DNA of 64,000 nucleotides from Brachyhypopomus gauderio (taxonomy: Eukaryota > Chordata > Actinopteri > Gymnotiformes > Hypopomidae), in assembly GCF_052324685.1 (NCBI RefSeq), contig NC_135218.1, positions 16,722,479-16,786,478 of the forward strand. The letters are read 5' to 3'. The translations under genes and the position numbers were made by a program. The notes under the pieces were generated by a model. It searched no databases. It saw only the letters and a program-made list of their open reading frames with translations, and had not been told where the DNA came from. Within the stretch, counting starts at the first letter, position 1, and each line of letters opens with the position of its first letter. Of the stretch, positions 16,594 to 63,277 are shown one piece after another.

Positions 16594-17228
16594 TTTTCAC
16601 ACTACTGAAGATGAAACTGCTGTAATTATTTCGGCCACACGTCCAAACCGCCCGAAAGAACGTTGGTTGCTGTAACTATGGTAACAGGTTCTCCTCCGGA
16701 CCTGCAGGAGGCGACATTCACCCCCATAGCGCCGCACACAGTCAAACGTGCTCAGAAGAAATGTGTCCCTAGCTTGTGCAGCTTTGCATATTTCTTTTTT
16801 ACCTAGCTGTGAATTATTTTCAGAGGTTTAAGACTGCCTGCACGGAGAGTAGCCTGAGCAGATAAAACCGAAGTTGTTTTTATAGCTAGTAAGAGGACAC
16901 GTTGTGGACTTACTTCCTTTACTTTCCCTTTCTAGCACGCTAGCTTAGCTATCTCCAGCTTAGCTGGCTGTCATATGTACGTGTGGAATATCACTGACTC
17001 TTATCATCTCGCTTACTGAACTGTATTAGTATCATAAGGGTAACAAAACTTTTTTCCGTAATGAAAATTTCTTATATGTATATAAATGTACTTTACATAT
17101 GTTAACTTGTTGGTTACTGCTCTTATGACAGAGTTGTGTGGAAGGTGAGTGAGCTGTTGAATATTAAACTGGCTGTGCTCTCCCTCCCTCTCTCCTTTTA
17201 AGAGTTTTCCGGGGCAGAGCTGCCCAAA
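16594..17228. promoter_or_regulatory. Shared divergent promoter region, dnai4 / pars2
   Basis: Only 635 bp separate the dnai4 start codon (minus strand) from the pars2 start codon (plus strand). The interval must hold both promoters and 5' UTRs. No TATA box is evident. It contains an X-box-like site close to dnai4. A bidirectional promoter is an inference from geometry. Confidence 0.6.
16672..16685 (-). promoter_or_regulatory. X-box-like (RFX) site upstream of dnai4
   Basis: In dnai4 sense the sequence is GTTACC-AT-AGTTAC. The RFX consensus is GTNRCC-N(0-3)-RGYAAC; the left half-site matches fully and the right half-site matches at five of six positions. It sits about 80 bp upstream of the dnai4 start codon, a usual place for X-boxes of ciliary genes. 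RFX control is inferred from motif, place and gene function. Confidence 0.55.
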
Positions 17229-19976
17229 ATGGAGGGTCTGATGCATCTCCATATCCACAAACTCCACGCCATACTGCCCAGATCACTGAGCAAAGCGTGT
17301 AGAAGGAGCCATCACTGTGTGTCCCAGCCCGCCCCCTCATCTCCCCCCCGTCCTGTCACTCCAGTGCCACTGGTGTCGCGCATCTTCCAGCCCTCGAATC
17401 TCCGTGAAGGTCAGGAGGTCGGGGACCTGACGTGCCGCAGCCAGAGGCTGATGCTGCAGGCGGGCCTGCTCCAGCTGTCCAGCCCCGGTTGCTTCCACTA
17501 CCTGCCCTCCGCCCTGCGCTCCATGGAGAAACTGGTGAGGCTCATCGACCAGGAGATGCAGGGCATCGGCGGGCAGAAGGTGGACATGCCGGCGCTGTGT
17601 GGGGCTGAGCTGTGGAGACGCAGCGGCCGCTGGACGCTGATGGGCAAGGAGATGTTCCGGCTGCGTGACCGTCACAATGCCGAGTACTGCCTGGGGCCCA
17701 CGCACGAAGAGGCCGTCACAGAGCTGCTCGCCCTGCAGAGCACACTGTCCTACAGGCAGCTGCCTCTGCTCCTCTATCAGGTATTCAGAACGCCTCCCCG
17801 CTAGGGTTGCAGCGGTAACCGGTTTCACGGTATACCACGGTATTAAAATGCACGGTTATCATACCGTGTGCGTTTGCTTATTACCGGTAAAAAGCAAGCC
17901 AGCGGAGAAACTGACCCGCGCATGCGCAACTCCGCTCCGGTTCAGCTACTCAGCACACAGCAGTGAGAATGGCAGAAAGTGCATCAGACTTAACACATTA
18001 ACACAAAAAGCTAAACTAAAATCAGTGGCGAAAATGACGTAATCGCGGTGGCTCCGCAGGTGCGCGAGGGTCTCGCGCGCTGTCGATTCGCGAGGTCGTG
18101 CACCTCTCGAATTTTGTAACTTTGCGCGCGCTGCGCCTCAGCGCAATGAACAGTCATGTTTGCAGGATTCATACACGTTTAAAAGGTGGAATTAAAACAC
18201 TTGTACGTCACTTTAAAGGTCCGTTTCAATATTTCCCAGCACCTTAAACTTAATTAAGTTAAATATTTATACATATACTCGAAATAATTCGCTTTTTCAT
18301 CACATTATTTAATGGTTGTTTATTTCCAAAACGCAATCTTAACGTCTTCACGTTCTCTCATGTTTCGTCCTGGAATTACAAGAGGCTCGTATTTGTTAAC
18401 GTAAGACAAAAGAACTGTGCGGAGTCGCGTGCTACGGTCACTAGTGAAAGTATAAACCTAGCTTTTTATGGTCCTTGCTTTCACTGGATGTGAAAGACGC
18501 TATTAATTTACATGCGTTCAAATTCTAACGTACCTGTTTTTGATATGTTAAAACCAGACTCGGTGTGAAAGCCTTAAAATATAAATCTCTATTGTGAGGG
18601 TCATGTCAGAAATAAATCCTCTCTTTCTGCAGTATCTGGTTATATTCTAACTTGGCAGTACAACGGACGTTTACAACAGTTGTTGATCAGACACTGACCC
18701 AGGCTGAGTTTATCAGATATTAAATAATTTAAACTTAAATAATTGTACTGAAATCCATGATTTAGGTTTCTCTAATTTTGCAGTATTTATATAAACATGT
18801 GTACAGCTTATTTTTTTAAAGGACACATTTTGTATACAATAGTTCCAGGTTTCTACAATAAATAGTTAATTGAACAAAAATAACTTGTTGTAATTTCTTT
18901 AAGGGTCAGTGTATCTTTTAATAATATACAAACTAACTGTGATACCGTGATAACCGTGATACCGCGGTATTTTCTGAGACGGTTATCATACCGTGAAAAT
19001 CTCATACCGTTGCAACCCTACTCCCCGCTCAGTTCATATGAAATAGTTTTGAAGAAACGGTTTCTCGCTTCATTCTCCGACGTGTGATCTGCAGGTCACC
19101 CGAAAGTTTCGCGATGAGCAGAAGCCGAAGTTCGGGCTGCTACGAGGCCGGGAGTTCTACATGAAGGACATGTACTCGTTTGATGTTAGCGAGGAGGCGG
19201 CCCTTCACACCTATCGGTCTGTGTGCGGTGCGTATGGGCGTCTGCTCCATAGACTGGGCCTGAGGTGGATGCAGGTGCAGGCCGACACGGGCACCATCGG
19301 TGGATCGCTCTCGCACGAGTTTCACCTGCCAGCCGAGGTTGGAGAAGACCGTTTGCTCATGTGTGGGAACTGTGGTTTCTCTGCCAATGTGGAAACTGTG
19401 GAAGCCGGGAGAACCGACTGCCCCCGGTGTCTCACAGAACCCCTGACTGAGTCCAAAGGCATTGAGGTGGGACACACCTTCTACCTCGGCACAAAGTATT
19501 CGCAGGTATTCAATGCCACATTTACCAACGCTGAGAACAAGCCCACGCTGACACAGATGGGCTGCTTCGGCCTCGGGGTCACACGCATCCTCGCCGCCTC
19601 CGTTGAAGTGCTCTCCTCTGAGGACTCCGTCCGGTGGCCTGGACTCCTCGCTCCTTACCAAGTTTGTATCCTACCCCCTAAAAAAGGCAGCAAAGCCAGT
19701 GAGGGGATCCCCGTGGCCGAGGAGCTGGCCCAGCACCTAGGGAACCACTTACCTCATCTGAAAGGGGAGGTGGTCCTGGATGACAGGACCCAGTTGACCA
19801 TTGGCAAGCGGTTGAAGGACGCTGTCCGGCTGGGCTACCCCTATGTGGTGGTGGTGGGACAGAAGGTCATGGAGGAGGAGCCCGTGTTTGAGGTGGTGTG
19901 TCAGCAACGTGGGGAGGCCGTGTTCCTAAGCCGAGACGGCCTGCTGGACCTTTTGAGTGGAGTGGAGACAATTTAG
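17229..19976 (+). CDS. pars2: Prolyl-tRNA synthetase 2, mitochondrial
   Basis: PARS2 charges mitochondrial tRNA(Pro) with proline, using ATP, in the matrix. There are two coding exons, 17229-17780 and 19095-19976, joined in phase 0 (CAG|GTATTC ... CTGCAG|GTCACC). They give 477 residues, close to the human length as I recall it. The N-terminus is basic and serine-rich, fitting a mitochondrial targeting peptide. The class II synthetase core includes GPTHEEAVTELLA, VTRKFRDEQKPKFGLLRGRE with FYMKDMYSFD, and motif 3 GCFGLGVTRILAA. The C-terminal anticodon-binding domain begins near PYQVCILPPKK. It resembles the short bacterial-like ProRS without the large editing insertion. Its intron carries a hAT insertion. 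Adjacent ttc4 and ttc22 are also PARS2 neighbours in human. Confidence 0.95.
17802..19020. mobile_element. Non-autonomous hAT transposon inside the pars2 intron
   Basis: The element starts TAGGGTTGCAGCGGTAACCG and ends CATACCGTTGCAACCCTA, so its ends are inverted repeats (TAGGGTTGCA...TGCAACCCTA). Subterminal CACGGTAT/ATACCGTG motifs repeat near both ends. It is flanked by a perfect 8-bp duplication, CTCCCCGC, at 17794-17801 and 19021-19028, the hallmark of hAT transposition. The 1219-bp body has no transposase frame. The perfect duplication suggests a fairly recent insertion. Confidence 0.93.
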
Positions 19977-23063: not shown

Positions 23064-24300
23064 AGCACTGAAGAAGTGAGTGTACTAACCATCGTCTCAG
23101 CTCCAGTCATAATGGAGTTTGCTACGTGTAGATCTGCTTTTGAAGCCACTGTGTTGAAACAGTGTGGTGGAAACACCTTCACAGCAGCACTGGGTAAAAT
23201 GGCCCTTCCTAAGAGACTTTGACAAGGCATCAGACAAGGCATGTTTACAGGAAGACACCATGACCGTTTACTGGAGTTCAAACACCATATTTTATTCACA
23301 GTAGTTCTGTGGGAGCTTCCAGGTTGCAAAGCTGTGTCGTTTTATAAAACACAAAATCGGTTCACCTGACTCGAATCATAACACTGACATGGATCAAATA
23401 ATAAACAGTTTTCAAATAAAGTCCTTTCACAAGATATTGATGCTTTGCTCCACATTTTGTATCCTGTGGTAACAGAGACTGCTATGACAGTGGGCTGGCT
23501 CTGTGGTCCAGTGATGAGGGTCCTATGACCTGCAGAACCTGGTATCTGACCTGTGCTCTTCACAGGAGGGATTGTCAGAATACTGTCTGAAAGAGGTTAA
23601 GTTTCTAATTCTAATTCTGTTTAGCCCCAAAGTACATGCTGTTTTACCTGGGTTTATTACCTGGGTTTATTTCTGCTCTAGTCCAGAATCCTGTTTCAAA
23701 TGACAGTACAACACGGTTCCATTCAGTTATGACACCAAACTTGAAGTCACGTAAATCAAACCGTTCACTTTTGGTTTATTAAAACGAGAGAAATGCAGAT
23801 TTTATCCAGGAATGTGGGCCGCACGTGGTACGCTCTGGAGTTCCACTGTCTTTTCTAAATATACATCAGTGATGATATACATCCGCCCCATTACACATGC
23901 TGAATATCTGTCTTCCTCCCTGGTTATTTGCACAAACATCCAGGGACTTTATTCAAGAGTGTGCACGTATTGTAATGCACACACTGAGTTATTACATATA
24001 GTTTTTGTTGTTCATAATTGCATAACTGGAGGAAAGTAAAGATATCAGTGTTTGTAATGTCAGGAATTCTTTTTGATAATAGAACTTCAGTTGGCCTCTG
24101 TATTGCAACACTATTAGTAACAATTGTTTTGTACTGTACATTGTACATCACTCTCAAAGATGATGAAAATCAGTATCCTTGGGTACAGTCACTCTTATCC
24201 AACACAGTTCATTTCTCCTTACACTTCTCCTTAGCTTATCTGCATTACAACCACACAGTTGAAGGAAGCAGTATGTGGCTTCCAGCTCCTCCACGTCTCC
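23064..24300. other. Intergenic between converging ttc4 and ttc22
   Basis: This holds the 3' UTRs of the two convergent genes. An AATAAA on the plus strand near 23415 could end ttc4. No further coding exon is visible on either strand. Confidence 0.5.
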
Positions 24301-27300
24301 TCACACAGAGAGAGACCTGCCCAGCGCAAGGTGTTTCCCTGGAGGCTGCAGGGTCTGCAGGAGCCTCCTCACCATCCCCAGCCTGCCCTTCTTCACCAGC
24401 TCCCTGGACAGCTCGGCCACCTCCTCGGTACGCTCCCGGCACAGCCTCCTTATCTCCGCCTGGACGGCGCCGGCGCCCAGCCTCTCCTCCGCCTGCCCCA
24501 CGCACTCCTCCAGCTGCTCCACGGAGCGGCCCGTGTCGGCCGAGCTCCTCAGGCAGCTGTCCAGCAGGGCCCGGAGAAGCAAGGGCAGGGCCGCCGTCTC
24601 CTGGCTCCCGGGACGCTCCAGCTGCAGGGCCCGTCTGAAGCAGTCGATGGCGTTCTGCTCCTCCCCTTTGAGCTGCAGGCAGCGGCCACGCAGGAGCTGG
24701 AGCTCCGGGAGGGCGGGGCCTAACGGGCACTGCAGGGCATGGGCCAGGCTGACCAGAGCCTGGTTGACCGCCATCTCATCCACCATGAGGCTCTCCTGCA
24801 GAGCGTCTACACCCATGTAGTAAAAAACCTGATGAGGAAGGTAGAAAACTATGAGGCAGCGTATGATGTAACCAGATGTAGAACATCTACACACGTCTGT
24901 CTTGCCTTGTTCTTCTCAAAAACTGCCGTGCTCTTAAACATGGAGGCAGGCTAGTGTCTGTGGAATTGTGGGAAAAGGAATTGTGTGAATCAGCATTCGT
25001 GCCTCACCTGACCCATCTCCAGGTGTGTCCTTAGACAAGGCCGAACACTCAGAACTTGCTCGAGGTCAGCACGGGCCTCTCTCAGGTCTTGCCGGTCTGG
25101 ACTCCCATCCAAGCCTTGCTTTGCCCTGTCCAAGGCCTTCACATAACCTGTGACCTTAAGCTGGGAGGGTTTGTACAACATCAGTCTCCATATGAAAGAC
25201 TAGCACATTTATTACATACTTGAAATTTACAGAATAAAACATAATGGCAAATTAGGCAAATAAAAGTTACTGGTCCAGTATAATCTTTTTTGCCTTGTAC
25301 TCAAGAACACTGGATTTTATAATAAACCATTGAGGTGCAGTATGACAGATTTAATTAATCGACTGTATATTAGATGAATATACATGTACTATACATCAGT
25401 ATAATAATGGGAGTGATGGTTAATTAATCAGTTAAGAAAACTCCACATTTTGGCCCTGTAAACTTCAGTGTTATTTTAGTTCAATTTATTTAATTGCAAG
25501 TTGAAACATCTCTCGTTTTCAGGCTCTTGGTTGGATCTAAAGTGCCATCAGCAGTATGCTCATTGAGATCTGGTCCTGCTGCTAGTTCTACATGCTCATG
25601 ATCATTGAGATCTGGTTAATTAATCTGATTAATTATAGTCCTCTGAAATGGGGAGGAAAAAAGGATAATCTGATACATATAAAGACGCTCTGGATAAAGT
25701 TGCTCACCCATATCTCTTGGACTGGCAGGGGTGTGAGGTTTAGACTTACTTTAGCCCAGGGTATGAGGTTTAGACTTACTTTAGCTCAGGATGTGAGGAT
25801 TAGATTTACTTTAGCCTGGGGTTTGAGGATTAGACTTACTTTAGCCCGGATGCAGTAGGCTTGCCAGTTAAGTTCTGGATCAGGCAGGGTGGTCAGGGCC
25901 ATATTGCATATACCCGTAGCCATCTCATGTTTCCCCGACCGAAAAAATACATTGGCCAGCTGATTCAGTGTAAAGGCGTCATCGGTGGCAAGTTTAATGC
26001 CCTGTAAAAACAACCAGGGACACACAGTTTGAATTGCTTAAAGTCAACAGCAGCTCCTTTTTTCCATGCACAAGCCATTTTGGATGTTAACATGAAAGAG
26101 GGAAAGTACTCTAAGACACTTGAGGACATGTTTGTCCAAGGCAAACCCTGTTTGGATGGAATTTATGGTTAAGGAATAACTGGTGGGGAGCTAAAGGCAC
26201 TATTAGCCTCTTAACACATCTCATAGTTATATCCTGGCTTCTAGTAGAGTTTTAAACAGTTAATACAGACATTTGTATTGATGTACGATGACTGCAACTA
26301 AATGAAGGAAGTTGCATTGGAAAACATTGTGTATTTACATCACAATTGCACATTGTTTTATGTAATGACAGGGAGTATATACTCCATCAAAAGTACAATA
26401 AAGTCTAGACACAAACGTTGAACCAGCTATTTAGCAAGAGTTCATACACCGTGCAGCATTATCATCTGATATGTAAATGAGTATACAGTACCGATCCATA
26501 ACATGACAGCGGGTCAGAGCCAGAAAGGCCACAGTCGTGAACTGACATCGGTACAGTAGGGAATTCCTCTGTCCTCTCCAGCATGAGGCCAATATAACAC
26601 CAAGAAAGAGCTAGCAACACAGGCAGGTTTGTCAGCACAGTGACAGGCTTTTGGGATCATTTATAAGCCCTGAAAGAGGGCAGAGATAGAGCCGATGCAA
26701 TATTGACATTTAAAACCGGACACACGAGCACTAGTTTAACTGTGTGTTAGTCTCCTGTATTTAATCGTAATTAAACCAGACTATTCAATAACATTCCATA
26801 AAATATAACCACAAGATATCAATGTACATATAAACTGTATAAGATCAACTGTAAAACTACATAGATCAAAGTAAACGCTAGTTCATTAATGTGATGTCCC
26901 ACAGTGACCCAGAGTGCTACCTTTGAGGTGTGTCCTGTCAGAATTCAGAGTCTCTGTTAGCAATTTGAGAGCTTGGTTGAAGTAGGTGAGTCTGGCAGTG
27001 TCCATATCCATAGAATCGTTGACAATGTCAGTTAGTCTATAAAAGCAAATAGATTTTGTGATTAAGTATTTATTTATTGTTTGGAAGGTGCTTAAACAGC
27101 TGCTTGCAGAAGTTTTGTCTTATATAAACAAAGTAGCCAAAGTACAATTTAACCAAAGTCAAAGTATAGTGAACTCTTGGTTACACATTCACATTATGAA
27201 TGGGAATTATACAACCTTATATAAATTGTTGCCATTTTGAAATACCAGCTCAACTTTTCTTCTGTAGGTACCTACAATAATTAGCAACAGAAAATGTACA

Positions 27301-27936
27301 GTATTTAGCATTAGTGTTTTACTCCAGAGATTCAAAATGGCTTATTCTTTTATCAGAATGAGAAAGTCTCACCAGGTCACCGCCAAGACAGAGTGCACGT
27401 TTATAGAGTGTCAGTGCTGCGATCAGTCTCTCCTGGAGCTCCTCGTCTTGCTCGATCTCCACATCATGGGGATAGGCGAAAGCCTGCTCCGCCAGGCACT
27501 GAGCGGTCCTGAGCCTGCAGTCCGCCTGGCCCTCATCCGTCTCTGGATTGACGAGCGAGGCCACCCGCTCCAGACACTCCCCTTGCTCCCGTTCGCGGCC
27601 GAGCCGCTCGTACACGTGGGCCAGGTCGGCCCAGGCGTTGAGGTTCCAGGGCGCCTCCTGGCAGACGCCGCGGAAGGCCTCTTCGGCCGCCTCCAGCTCG
27701 TCCAGGTGGTAGGCCAGGAAGCCCAGCATGTTGCGTACGGCGTACTGCAGCCCCCCGGCCTCGGCCTCCAGCTCGGCCCGCAAGCTTTCCCGCTTAAGCT
27801 GGGTGTCACGGCGGCGGAGAGTGACCGGCCCGTCCACTTCACCGTTCAGATGGAGCGGCAGGTGAAAGTGGCCAGGGATGTATGTCAATCCTTCAATGAG
27901 AGACTCAATGTCCTCCTCTTTGCTGGTGTCCTCCAT
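24301..27936 (-). CDS. ttc22: Tetratricopeptide repeat protein 22
   Basis: TTC22 is a TPR protein of poorly known function. Seven exons were resolved on the minus strand: 27381-27936, 27216-27261, 26921-27036, 26492-26610, 25840-26001, 25008-25154 and 24301-24828. They total 1674 nt, an exact multiple of three: 557 residues, against about 569 in human as I recall. The start MEDTSKEEDIESLIEGLTY is preferred over an in-frame ATG 33 nt upstream because the conserved acidic start follows it. Recognisable stretches are NLNAWADLAHVYERLGRE, WYFKMATIYIR (46-nt exon), VPMSVHDCGLSGSDPL, NQLANVFFRSGKHEMA, DPELNWQAYCIRAK, and ALPELQLLRGRC near the C-terminus. The first splice donor is taken at GGCG|GTGACC; a stronger-looking GTGAGA 6 nt downstream would create a stop in the next exon. 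The last exon is GC-rich. Confidence 0.92.
25731..25850 (-). repeat. 30-bp x4 tandem array carrying copies of the ttc22 splice donor
   Basis: Four 30-bp units (25731-25760, 25761-25790, 25791-25820, 25821-25850) run head to tail. In ttc22 sense each holds GCTAAAGTAAGT (GTAAAT in one). The unit nearest the exon contains the true exon end, GGGCTAAA|GTAAGT, with the border at 25840/25839. Exon sequence is therefore part of the repeat unit. Confidence 0.93.
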
Positions 27937-29724: not shown

Positions 29725-30802
29725 TCATTTTCTGAAAATTAGCTTCTTTCTCAGGGTGAAAGAGGAAATTGGAGTTGCCTTTGCATCATACAACATTCGA
29801 GTCTTTTTGTCCATCACCATTCCTTCGCTCCTACTGACCTCGTCATTTACTCTGGTCAGGACTGTAAGGATGTCATCACCCCTAGGAGAACATGAGTGAC
29901 ATGCATTATGAGTCTGAAACAAATGTACTCTGAAAACAGACAGAACATGGACAAACTCACCATTTACTTCCTTCTTTTAAATGTCTACAGAGTGACTGAA
30001 TGAACCATGAGCCTTCTTCAGGAGATCGAAATGCTTTATAGCCGTCTACTGTGGACATGGCGAACAGGAAGTCAGAGTCTTTAGGGATGGAATAAGACTC
30101 TGTGTCAGAAGTGAGATCGTCATTTTCGAGCAGACATTTTTTCTGTGTTTTTGGTCCTCTGCATGCCTGGATAAAGAAAACCTTGGGCTTGCCAAGTAGA
30201 GAGGGACAATTTTCCCCATTAAATGGAGAGAAGATGTCCTCTGTAGGACACAGATACCCATCACATCCTAAAACACCTTCACTTATTCCATGACTAAGCA
30301 CACAGCAGACCCAGCAGTGTCCATGATGTTGTTGCTTGCTGTATTCCAGCATGAGTTCCTTCATGCGCTGTGCGCTCAGGTCATTATGCATCTCTACTTT
30401 AAAATCCAAGATCCCAAACACTTCCTCTAGGGCAACTGAAAGAGAAAAAACAGATTTGGGCTATTGTGAGAAAGCAGATTATAGATCCATTAGTGTTTCT
30501 GGTCAATAACCCTGTTGCCCATATTGGACATCACCTGAAGTTCTGTACATGCAATATTTATCACTAATGCAAATATATTATGCCAATATTGATGCAAATG
30601 AGCATAGTCATTCCAGATTCATCGTATACACAACATGTAGGAAGATGCGCATCAATGTAAAATGGGTTTCAAAAATGAGAATATAGAAGTTCAGACCAGC
30701 ATCCTTTCTGGAACCTGGTCGGTTGTTTCTAGGATTTGCAAAGTGTTCATTATTGATGATCACACACAAACCACGTGGTTCACTACTCATTGCGTATTCC
30801 TC
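29725..30802 (-). CDS. Caspase-8-like protease, catalytic-domain exons (5' end not found)
   Basis: This encodes a cysteine-aspartate protease of the caspase-8/10 group. Three exons join in phase: 30697-30802, 29961-30435 and 29725-29881. The first opens the large subunit with [20 protein letters not shown]. The second carries the catalytic histidine (CVLSHG), the catalytic cysteine in QACRG, an acidic inter-subunit stretch ([11 protein letters not shown]) and the small-subunit motif [15 protein letters not shown]. The third runs [15 protein letters not shown] to the C-terminus FTLRKKLIF before the stop; this ending is characteristic of caspase-8, not of caspase-1 or -3. Both catalytic residues are intact. 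No intact prodomain was found in the window. A decayed CARD exon lies 3.6 kb upstream in the same direction. A fish caspase-8 paralogue with a CARD in place of death-effector domains is one possibility. Alternatively this is a truncated or dying copy. Confidence 0.82.
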
Positions 30803-31624: not shown

Positions 31625-32269
31625 GAGCATTATGTACATTCTTAAGATGAATGAATGCTCAATTTATATATTTTTATATCGCCCGATAAGAGTATCACAT
31701 TATTGAACGCTGTTAACGCCAATAACGGCCCACCACACACACACGCACACACACGCACACAAACGTGTGTATATATATATCACACACGGGCAAGAATTGC
31801 ACACAGCATACTCTCAACCAGTGGTCACAGCCCCCTGGGGGACTGAATCAGGTGTAGGAAAAGGAGAGAGGACAGACCCAGGACAGAGTACCATCCACCT
31901 GCAGACATTCAGGAAACACACTCCGAGAGAATTTATTTGGAGAAAAGCCACATTTAACTAATCTCCATGCATTTTAACTGTGGGAGGAACATTTTCCTTA
32001 GCAGCCCTGGGATACAGACATTGGGAGGTAATTCTATCAGCATTGGCTAAGATCATTTAAATGAGTTGACAGCCTCCTTCTTAGTTGTTTTAGGTCTCTG
32101 TGTATAATGTATTGTCTCTAACAAGGTCAGAATGTTGCAGAGTTTAACTTTATCTTGTAGGTGTCTGGTGCTGTGAGCTGAGGACATCTGATTTGAATAA
32201 TATTTAAAAAACAGTCAAAATCTTCCAATGGGATATAACGACATTGTTATGGTGAGCCGGTCCCAGCGT

Positions 32270-39894: not shown

Positions 39895-40467
39895 TGGGCT
39901 GATGTGCTGACGGACAGAAGAGACAACTATTAGGCTGGCTTTGATGGAGAGAGGGAGGGAGGAAGGGAGGGACAGAGCTGAAAGACGAAGCACGGAGAGA
40001 GGGGGAGTGTAAGGGCATGATGCAGGAGACGCAGCAGACGCAGGAGCAGGAGACGCAGGAGACGCTGAAGGACGGCACATTGCTCAGGCTGAGCTGAAGC
40101 GTCAGGGAGATTAGACTTCGATCTCAGTGTTTCACACCATATGGTGTTTGTGCAGGTGCACGTCTAGGGATATATAGGCACGTATAGACACAGAGATGGC
40201 CCCGGGTATTTATGTCTAGTCGTGCACTCAGGTGTGTGCAGTTTGACATGGGGCTGCCTGCTACTTTGTGTTGGGTCACTGGGCTGCAGCTCAGCATTAT
40301 GGGAAGGTTTAGGTTTGTTCTTTGCCACATATGGGCAAAATTGTTTTCATCAGACTTTGCTTTCCACATGTGTTACAAATTATTGCATAGATGGCATAAA
40401 AACTTTGAGTTCCTGACACTAAACATAATATAAAACAGAGAACATGTAGGAAGACATTGGTTACCAC

Positions 40468-56078: not shown

Positions 56079-57393
56079 TCACACGTCATCGGCTGGCAGA
56101 GGTGGGATGTTGAACCTTGGTCTAGTGAAGAACGCCATCTTCTCTCTGTTGGGCACAGGACTCAGCTGTTACTTTCTATATCAACGAGAGACTAAAATGG
56201 CTCCAAAACACAGAATACGGACACAAGCTACAGAACACGGCGGGCGAGTAATAAAGACAGCGGGAACCTTCTGGAAACTTCTGCCATAACTCAAACCATT
56301 AAGCCCAGTGTGGAGATCAGAGCCAGGTGCTGGGAGATGCTGACACGGCAGTGGGGAAGTGGTTGTGCTGGTGGCCCACCTGAAGGTCTGCACGGGGAGA
56401 GGCTCCTTGGGGGTCTGTCCCCTCATCTGCAGCACCTCCTTCGAGGCCTTCCTGAGTCTCCTCTCCGCAGCCTCCTCCTGCCTCTGCTCCTGCCTGCTCT
56501 GCTTGGCCTGACCGAGGGGTGGGGGGGGAAATGGAGGTGACATGCATTAATAAACAAGAAGAATAGCAAAAAGTTCAAGCCAAAAAGATACACACCCACG
56601 TACCTATGTTAATTATCTCCAAAAAAGATTTTGTTTAGTCAGGAAAATAGAGGGACAACACTGCACCTCTCCCAGGCTCTACCCGTCTCCGGGCCCCTCC
56701 CAGGCTCTACCCGTCTCCGGGCCCCTCCCAGGCTCTACCCGTCTCCGGGCCCCTCCCAGGCTCTACCCGTCTCCGGGCCCCTCCCAGGCTCTACCCGTCT
56801 CCGGGCCCCTCCCAGGCTCTACCCGTCTCCGGGCCCCTCCCAGGCTCTACCCGTCTCCGGGCCCCTCCCAGGCTCTACCCGTCTCCGGGCCCCTCCCAGG
56901 CTCTACCCGTCTCCGGGCCCCTCCCAGGCTCTACCCGTCTCCGGGCCCCTCCCAGGCTCTACCCGTCTCCGGGCCCCTCCCAGGCTCTACCCGTCTCCGG
57001 GCCCCTCCCAGGCTCTACCCGTCTCCGGGCCCCTCCCAGGCTCTACCCGTCTCCGGGCCACTCCCAGGCTCTACCCGTCTCCGGGCCCCTCCCAGGGTCT
57101 ACCCGTCTCTGGGTCCCTCCCAGGGTTTACCTGTCTCTGGGCCTCTCTCAGGAGTCCCCGAAAGCGCTCGTCTCTCAGGGCCCAGTGCTGCTCTGGCGGG
57201 CCCCGGGGCCCCTGGCCTGGCTCCTCAAGTCGCAGCTTGAGCTCACGCAGGGCCATCAGCTCCTCGCTCAGCTGCCTCTGCCGTGTCCGGCACGCCTGGA
57301 GGTCCAGCTCCAGGTCGAGGGAGGTGCGCGTAGGCTGCTCGGCCAGGGAGGAGCGGTGAGGCTGCTGTGTGAGGAGCATGCACACACACACGC

Positions 57394-61202: not shown

Positions 61203-63277
61203 TATCATCAAATTTGAAGAGAGGGTCTCAGAAAAATAAAATTCAGTAAGCCGTCTCACCTGCTGCACTATAAGCCCCTTGGACGCCGCCGTCTCTGTGG
61301 CTTTTGCCCTCCAGAAGGGGCGCCGTGGAGCACGAGCCCGCCACGTCGCCCTCCCCGGCCAGAGCGGAGTGCTGCAGGGCCGCGGCCGGCCCGCGGAGAC
61401 CCTCCAGCACCAGGCCGCGCCCGGCCAGCTCCATGTACTCCTCAGTCATCTGGGCGAGGGGGCAGTCCGGGGGGCCCACGTGGTAGGGCGTGTCCATGGG
61501 CGAGCTGGGCGGGGACAGAGAGGAGAGGGAGGAGCGCGAGGAGAGGGAGGCCAGCGAGTGGGGAGCGTCTGGCCCGCGTTTGGCCCCCGGGCGGTGGGAG
61601 GGCTCCGGCTGTAGCGGCTCGGCAGGGGCGTCGGGGCGCTCGTACTGGGGCGGGCCGTAGATGTCGCTGAAGCTGACTGAGCTGAGCGAGCCTCTGCTGG
61701 AGGTCAGCGAGCCGCGGCTGGAGGCCAGAGATCCACGGCTACTGCTGCTGGATACCGTCAGCGTGCTGGCCGAGAGACTGCAGAGGCACAGGGGGAAGAT
61801 CAGAGATCACGCCGCATCACACCAGGATTAGGACGTTTGAGGAGCGCGTGTTCGGGGACGTGTGTGGTGGGGTGTGTAGGGGGCGTGTGCATGGCGGGGC
61901 GTGTGCGTGTAGGGGGCGTGTGTGTGGCGGGGTGTGTGCGTGTAGGGGGGGCGTGTGCGTGGCGGGGCGTGTAGGGGGCGTGTGCGTGTAGGGGGCGTGT
62001 GCGTGTAGGGGGCGTGGCGGGGCGTGTAGGGGGCGTGTGCGTGTAGGGGGCGTGTAGGGGGCGTGGGCGTGTAGGGGGCGTGTAGGGGGCATGGGCGTGT
62101 AGGGGGCGTGTGCGTGTAGGGGGCGTGGTGGGGGCGTGTGCGTGGTGGGGGCGTGTAGGGGGCTTGTGCGTGGTGGGGCGTGTGCGTGGTGGGGCGTGTA
62201 GGGGGCGTGTGCGTGGTGGGGCGTGTAGGGGGCGTGTGCGTGGTGGGGCGTGTAGGGGGCGTGTGCGTGGTGGGGCGTGTGCGTGGTGGGGCGTGTGCGT
62301 GGTGGGGCGTGTAGGGGGCTTGTGCGTGGTGGGGCGTGTAGGGGGCTTGTGCGTGGTGGTGCGTGTAGGGGGCGCGTGCGTGGTGGTGCGTGTAGGGGGC
62401 GCGTGCGTGTAGGGGCGTGTAGGGGGCGTGTGCGTGTAGGGGGCGTGTGCGTGTAGGGGGCGTGTGCGTGTAGGGGGCGTGGTGGGGGCATGTGCGTGTA
62501 GGGGGCGTGTGCGTGGTGGGGGCGTGTGCGTGGTGGGGGCGTGTGCGTGGTGGGGGCGTGTAGGGGGCGTGTGCGTGGTGGGGCGTGTGCGTGGTGGGGC
62601 GTGTGCGTGGTGGGGCGTGTGCGTGGTGGGGCGTGTGCGTGGTGGGGCGTGTGCGTGGTGGGGCGTGTAGGGGGCTTGTGCGTGGTGGGGCGTGTAGGGG
62701 GCTTGTGCGTGGTGGTGCGTGTAGGGGGCGCGTGCGTGGTGGTGCGTGTAGGGGGCGCGTGCGTGGTGGTGCGTGTAGGGGGCGTGTGCGTGGTGGTGCG
62801 TGTAGGGGGCGTGTGCGTGGTGGTGCGTGTAGGGGGCTTGTGTGTGGTGGGGCGTGTAGGGGCGTGTGCGTGGTGGGGCGTGTGCGTGGTGGGGCGTGTA
62901 GGGGGCTTGTGCGTGGTGGGGCGTGTAGGGGGCTTGTGCGTGGTGGGGCGTGTAGGGGGCGTGTGCGTGGTGGTGCGTGTAGGGGGCGTGTGCGTGGTGG
63001 GGCGTGTAGGGGGCGTGTGCGTGGTGGGGCGTGTAGGGGGCGTGTGCGTGGTGGGGCGTGTAGGGGGCTTGTGCGTGGTGGGGCGTGTAGGGGGCGTGTG
63101 CGTGGTGGGGCGTGTAGGGGGCTTGTGTGTGGTGGGGTGTGTAGGGGCGTGTGTGTGGTGGGGTGTGTAGAGGCGTGTGTGTGGTACCTCTTCAGCTGAG
63201 AGTGGAGATAGGTGGTGATGCGGGTGGCTTCCTCCAGCTGCCTCAATAGCACATTCCTCTTCTCCTGCTGCAGTATC

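Follow-up and report, generated by a model that had tools for sequence, protein, structure and literature searches.

A minisatellite made of four 30-bp copies straddles the border between exon 5 and intron 5 in a TTC22-like gene on a 64,000-nucleotide stretch of the Brachyhypopomus gauderio genome (contig NC_135218.1, positions 16,722,479 to 16,786,478; hereafter the window, numbered from its first letter). The array lies on the minus strand across 25839/25840, the border given by the gene model, and a donor-like site is present in every unit, GTAAGT in three of the four and GTAAAT in the remaining one. The notable point is that the splice donor itself is part of the repeat unit. The anatomy of the array gives good support to an expansion seeded at the exon 5/intron 5 5′ splice site.

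Anatomy of the array

Tandem Repeats Finder (TRF) delimited the array at 25729-25847 on the minus strand, with a period of 30, 4.0 copies, 85% matches, 0 indels and a score of 175. With a 30-bp unit present 4.0 times, the element is a minisatellite in the usual sense (a tandem array whose unit is about 10 bp or longer). For comparison, the units were cut in register, ten bases before each GT, giving on the minus strand unit 1 (25820-25849, CCGGGCTAAAGTAAGTCTAATCCTCAAACC), unit 2 (25790-25819, CCAGGCTAAAGTAAATCTAATCCTCACATC), unit 3 (25760-25789, CTGAGCTAAAGTAAGTCTAAACCTCATACC) and unit 4 (25730-25759, CTGGGCTAAAGTAAGTCTAAACCTCACACC). In this register any two units agree at 23-28 of 30 bases. 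Unit 2 is identical to unit 1 at 26 of 30 positions, and the closest pair is formed by units 3 and 4 (28/30). Unit 1 contains the native donor, with its GT at 25839-25838, and the array as bounded by TRF ends within it, at 25847. The downstream units carry donor-like GTAAAT at 25809 (+30), GTAAGT at 25779 (+60) and GTAAGT at 25749 (+90). An initial annotation of the window had described a four-copy 30-bp array at this donor with these four GT positions and hexamers, and both TRF and the unit comparison bear it out.

On the exon side, all four units have GCTAAAGTAA in common, spaced at exactly 30 bp from the exon end onwards. The annotation had gone further and placed the last 11 exon bases within the array, which is too many. 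Eight exon bases lie inside the TRF boundary; the C at -10 is the same in all four units, whereas the base at -11 differs.

The offset-30 self-match at the array is 76 of 89 bases, compared with a window mean of 25.2 (standard deviation 6.7), and the 30-bp periodicity is far beyond chance for this offset. Five other stretches of the window reach at least 60 of 89 bases at offset 30 (34206, 40436, 41147, 46659 and 47972, the last with 81), all of them overlapping simple repeats of 2 to 4 bp. GTAAGT occurs 16 times on the minus strand of the window, and only within the array, in two pairs, do neighbouring occurrences lie 15-100 bp from each other; the ten occurrences on the plus strand form no such pair.

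The exon border in the gene model

The TTC22-like gene was rebuilt from the window as seven exons on the minus strand (24301-27936), with a single intact open frame of 565 amino acids and GT-AG ends at six of six introns. Exon 5 (25840-26001, 162 nt) begins and ends in phase 0 and has the acceptor TTTTTACAG/GGCATT and the donor GCTAAA/GTAAGT, the latter border falling at 25840/25839 in phase 0, and its open frame runs on into exons 4 and 6. Intron 5 spans 25161-25839 (679 nt) on the same strand, and exon 6 starts with CTTAAG at 25160. By this model, unit 1 straddles a real exon border.

Origin and growth of the array

The unit pattern GCTAAAGTAARTCTAAWCCTCA was searched with up to 2 mismatches in the 796.5-Mb genome of the fish itself, the counts being lower bounds. 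At least four matches were obtained, and all four found are units of this array; the reversed pattern, used as a control, gave 0 matches. The 201-bp array region has one match in the same genome (one assembly), namely itself. Because all the unit matches found fall in this array, the unit most likely grew locally, at this locus. Derivation from a dispersed repeat or transposon is not supported, the four genome matches found being the four units at 25729-25847.

Seeding at the 5′ splice site, proposed in the initial annotation, thus stands as far as anatomy is concerned: the matches found lie here, the control is empty, and the exon part of the array is coding in an intact gene model. The direction from the junction into the intron would be the simpler one, because the GCTAAA of the unit codes for residues that we take to be conserved. 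The closeness of units 3 and 4 suggests stepwise growth of the array.

Derivation of the whole unit from exon sequence upstream of unit 1 is likewise not supported. The 40 nt before unit 1 scored 8 in local alignment, compared with a shuffled mean of 6.8, and this score was reached by 26.5% of 2,000 shuffles. For the anchored alignments to units 2, 3 and 4, the proportions of shuffles that did as well were 88%, 49% and 71%, respectively.

Donor strength and coding outcome

The energies of the duplex with the U1 5′ end are -5.1, -1.8, -5.1 and -5.1 kcal/mol for units 1 to 4; three consensus donors, assessed likewise, range from -10.1 to -11.7. A simple donor weight matrix set up from generally known base frequencies scores the four sites at 8.76, 4.9, 8.76 and 8.76. 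By these simple scores, the native donor has no edge over the +60 and +90 copies. Its modest strength can be attributed to the AAA on the exon side. The +30 copy, which has no G at +5, scores lowest; it is also the only extra copy that is in frame and free of a stop. The initial annotation had called the copies ready-made alternative donors. As sequence potential this holds for the +60 and +90 copies, which equal the native site, and the +30 copy is clearly weaker.

The coding outcomes predicted in that annotation are correct. Use of the +30 site would insert ten in-frame residues, VSLILKPQAK, after residue 339. Use of +60 or +90 would meet a TGA at intron nucleotides 52-54 (25788-25786, in unit 3) after 17 added residues. 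Arithmetic on the gene model puts the exon 6/7 junction about 160-190 nt downstream of this TGA. By the usual rule, a premature stop so far before the last junction is expected to lead to nonsense-mediated decay.

RNA structure that hides some of the donor copies was set aside as an explanation. The predicted fold leaves the four donor sites similarly open (unpaired 0.67-0.79), which says little. A further donor-like TGGGTGAGC occurs in intron 5 at +132 (25702-25710, minus strand), outside the repeat, with a weight-matrix score of 7.4.

Which of the competing donors in DOK7 is chosen reportedly hinges on SRSF1 binding, distance and strength (PMC5585400). Leaky or regulated use of the extra donors in the TTC22-like gene is plausible from their sequences.

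Proposed explanation and its alternatives

The anatomy points to a short tandem duplication of 30 bp that began where exon 5 meets intron 5 and was repeated to four copies; it would have carried the last exon bases and the whole donor into the intron. The outermost copy, still attached to the exon in the gene model, would remain the main donor because only this copy yields the protein without insert or stop. Since the complementarity of the +60 and +90 copies to U1 equals that of the native donor, these copies most likely compete for U1 or serve as decoys for it. Transcripts spliced at these two sites would carry the TGA, and nonsense-mediated decay would be expected to remove them; the weak +30 site, if rarely used, would add ten residues after residue 339. 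On this view the array is most likely not a selected switch but a near-neutral minisatellite that is tolerated, with noisy splicing at a low level. We favour this explanation as a whole, with a probability of about 60%.

The extra copies can be read differently. They may serve as binding decoys or enhancers for the U1 small nuclear ribonucleoprotein that set how efficiently exon 5 is defined, or as poison donors, with copy number tuning the dose of TTC22 through decay. Two of them are perfect GTAAGT, and the TGA is so placed that either would lead to a premature stop ahead of a remaining exon junction. This stop, however, stems from the state of one base in unit 3, and selection is not needed to explain it. 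Such a role is improbable. A further reading is a heritable splicing rheostat, in which the number of units and the single TGA-bearing unit would decide what fraction of exon 5 transcripts goes to nonsense-mediated decay; we regard it as quite improbable. If it were true, length alleles would alter TTC22 dose with the protein unchanged.

Several points weigh against the near-neutral minisatellite seeded at the donor. If equal donors are resolved toward the intron-proximal site, as work on duplicated donors reportedly indicates, the native donor would be expected to lose, a point that the explanation does not account for. The variant TCTAATCCTCA is common to units 1 and 2, with TCTAAACCTCA in units 3 and 4, but overall unit 1 is nearer to unit 4 (27/30) than to unit 2 (26/30); the variant of units 1 and 2 conflicts with the overall identities, and the units do not point to one order of growth. 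The orthology to TTC22 depends on a presumed human sequence and a presumed gene order. Finally, 0.68 border overlaps are expected by chance from the 12 internal borders of the TTC22-like gene alone, and an array that touches an exon border is therefore no great surprise.

This expectation reflects the frequency of minisatellites in the window, where 22 merged arrays of period above 10 cover 3,606 of 64,000 bases, a single 1.3-kb array making up over a third of these. The count leaves out a period-10 row at 31736 and shorter periods, except for a period-9 row at 40022 that was merged with a period-15 row. Such frequency speaks for a chance placement, in which the array arose in the intron and resembles the exon end by coincidence, or in which copies were added by assembly error. 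Against coincidence, each of the four units carries GCTAAAGTAA exactly in the register set by the exon end, and the search described above gave no further genome match. The several base differences among the units would likewise be unlike a simple assembly duplication. We consider chance placement or assembly error highly improbable.

Other arrays in the window were noted in their own right. At 23644-23671, downstream of the stop codon of the TTC22-like gene, a 13-bp unit is repeated 2.2 times and reads TAAACCCAGGTAA on the minus strand; it is donor-like, probably by chance. The 1.3-kb array at 61860-63185 is G-rich, with about 47 copies of a 27-bp unit, GTGCGTGGTGGGGCGTGTAGGGGGCGT. At 56669-57152 there are 17.3 copies of a 28-bp unit with 97% matches, perhaps a young array.

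The TTC22-like gene and its neighbours

The seven exons lie on the minus strand at 27936-27373, 27271-27216, 27036-26921, 26610-26492, 26001-25840, 25160-25008 and 24828-24301. A frameshift in exon 4 arises if an acceptor before 26669 is assumed; it is gone with the acceptor before 26610, which leaves the frame intact. The exon 4 donor (TCG/GTACTG, 26486-26494, minus strand) is weak by consensus and scores 0.89 in the simple weight matrix used above.

We provisionally take the gene to be TTC22 from the human protein, which presumably reads YCTRAK and then IHIRAY at the same place with no gap, and from the presumed gene order. Human TTC22 is presumably a TPR protein of about 570 amino acids with 7 coding exons, in agreement with the 565 amino acids and 7 exons found here. 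TPR_8, TPR_1, TPR_2 and TPR_14 pass the Pfam whole-protein cut-offs, without any single stretch passing alone, and TPR_12, TPR_7 and ARM_TT21_5th fall below them. The top-scoring TPR stretches are residues 70-107 and 432-462. A PDB sequence search with the protein returned 16 weak matches, mostly designed proteins and none named TTC22.

Elsewhere in the window, an open stretch at 19053-19973 (plus strand) has class II tRNA synthetase and anticodon-binding domains by Pfam. Together with the open stretch at 17202-17801, which has no Pfam match, it is read as PARS2. A caspase-domain open stretch (Pfam) lies at 29960-30460 on the minus strand.

Relation to known systems and significance

A minisatellite that carries donor sites is a kind of element already in print for human IFI6, which is the closest precedent, and the TTC22-like gene is a further example of the kind. 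The IFI6 array reportedly begins at the end of exon 2, with a 12-nt unit, about 26 copies and a polymorphic copy number, and the use of its repeat copies as donors is said to have been shown in mRNA. According to Turri, Cuin and Porter (1995), multiple splice donor sites are provided by the minisatellite of this gene (also G1P3 or 6-16). The likeness lies in a minisatellite that overlaps an exon end with donor sites in its units, which in the TTC22-like gene are candidate donors recognised from sequence alone. In contrast to IFI6, the unit here is 30 nt long and present in 4 copies, gene and lineage are different, and two of the three extra donors lead to a stop.

Two downstream repeat units of IFI6 are reported to serve as donors (PMC4526556), and this precedent favours a functional alternative-donor cassette in the TTC22-like gene, the downstream units being used measurably to give a ten-residue isoform and unproductive isoforms. 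The 30-bp period, which preserves the frame at +30, and the equality of the +60 and +90 copies with the native site point the same way. However, the sole in-frame, stop-free copy is the weakest one. The ten residues would also be inserted between residues 339 and 340, by eye probably within a TPR helix, although the best TPR stretches lie elsewhere. On balance, such a cassette is unlikely.

The array also resembles tandem or GYNGYN alternative 5′ splice sites, where closely spaced donors compete with in-frame or nonsense-mediated decay outcomes (PMC2423196, PMC1779574). Those reported with unusually high alternative use are 3-6 nt apart (PMC2423196), whereas whole 30-bp copies are involved here. 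The gain of a competing donor by a constitutive exon is likewise described for alternative 5′ splice sites that arise from constitutive exons (PMC1876488). In that model mutations create the new site, and the words duplication and duplicated are absent from its main text. In another reported case a splice signal is copied by tandem duplication (PMC4974935); a new intron forms there, whereas an existing intron gains extra donors here. No report of such an array in TTC22 was found in the open-licence literature, in searches made mostly without naming TTC22.

The array amounts to a natural experiment in splice-site choice, with near-identical donors offered to the spliceosome at 30-nt intervals, and adds another gene to those in which a minisatellite carries the donor itself. 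If the copies are unused, donor choice would not be decided by sequence equality. If they are used, or vary between individuals, repeat-length variation would be linked to splicing in a form readable from junction counts.
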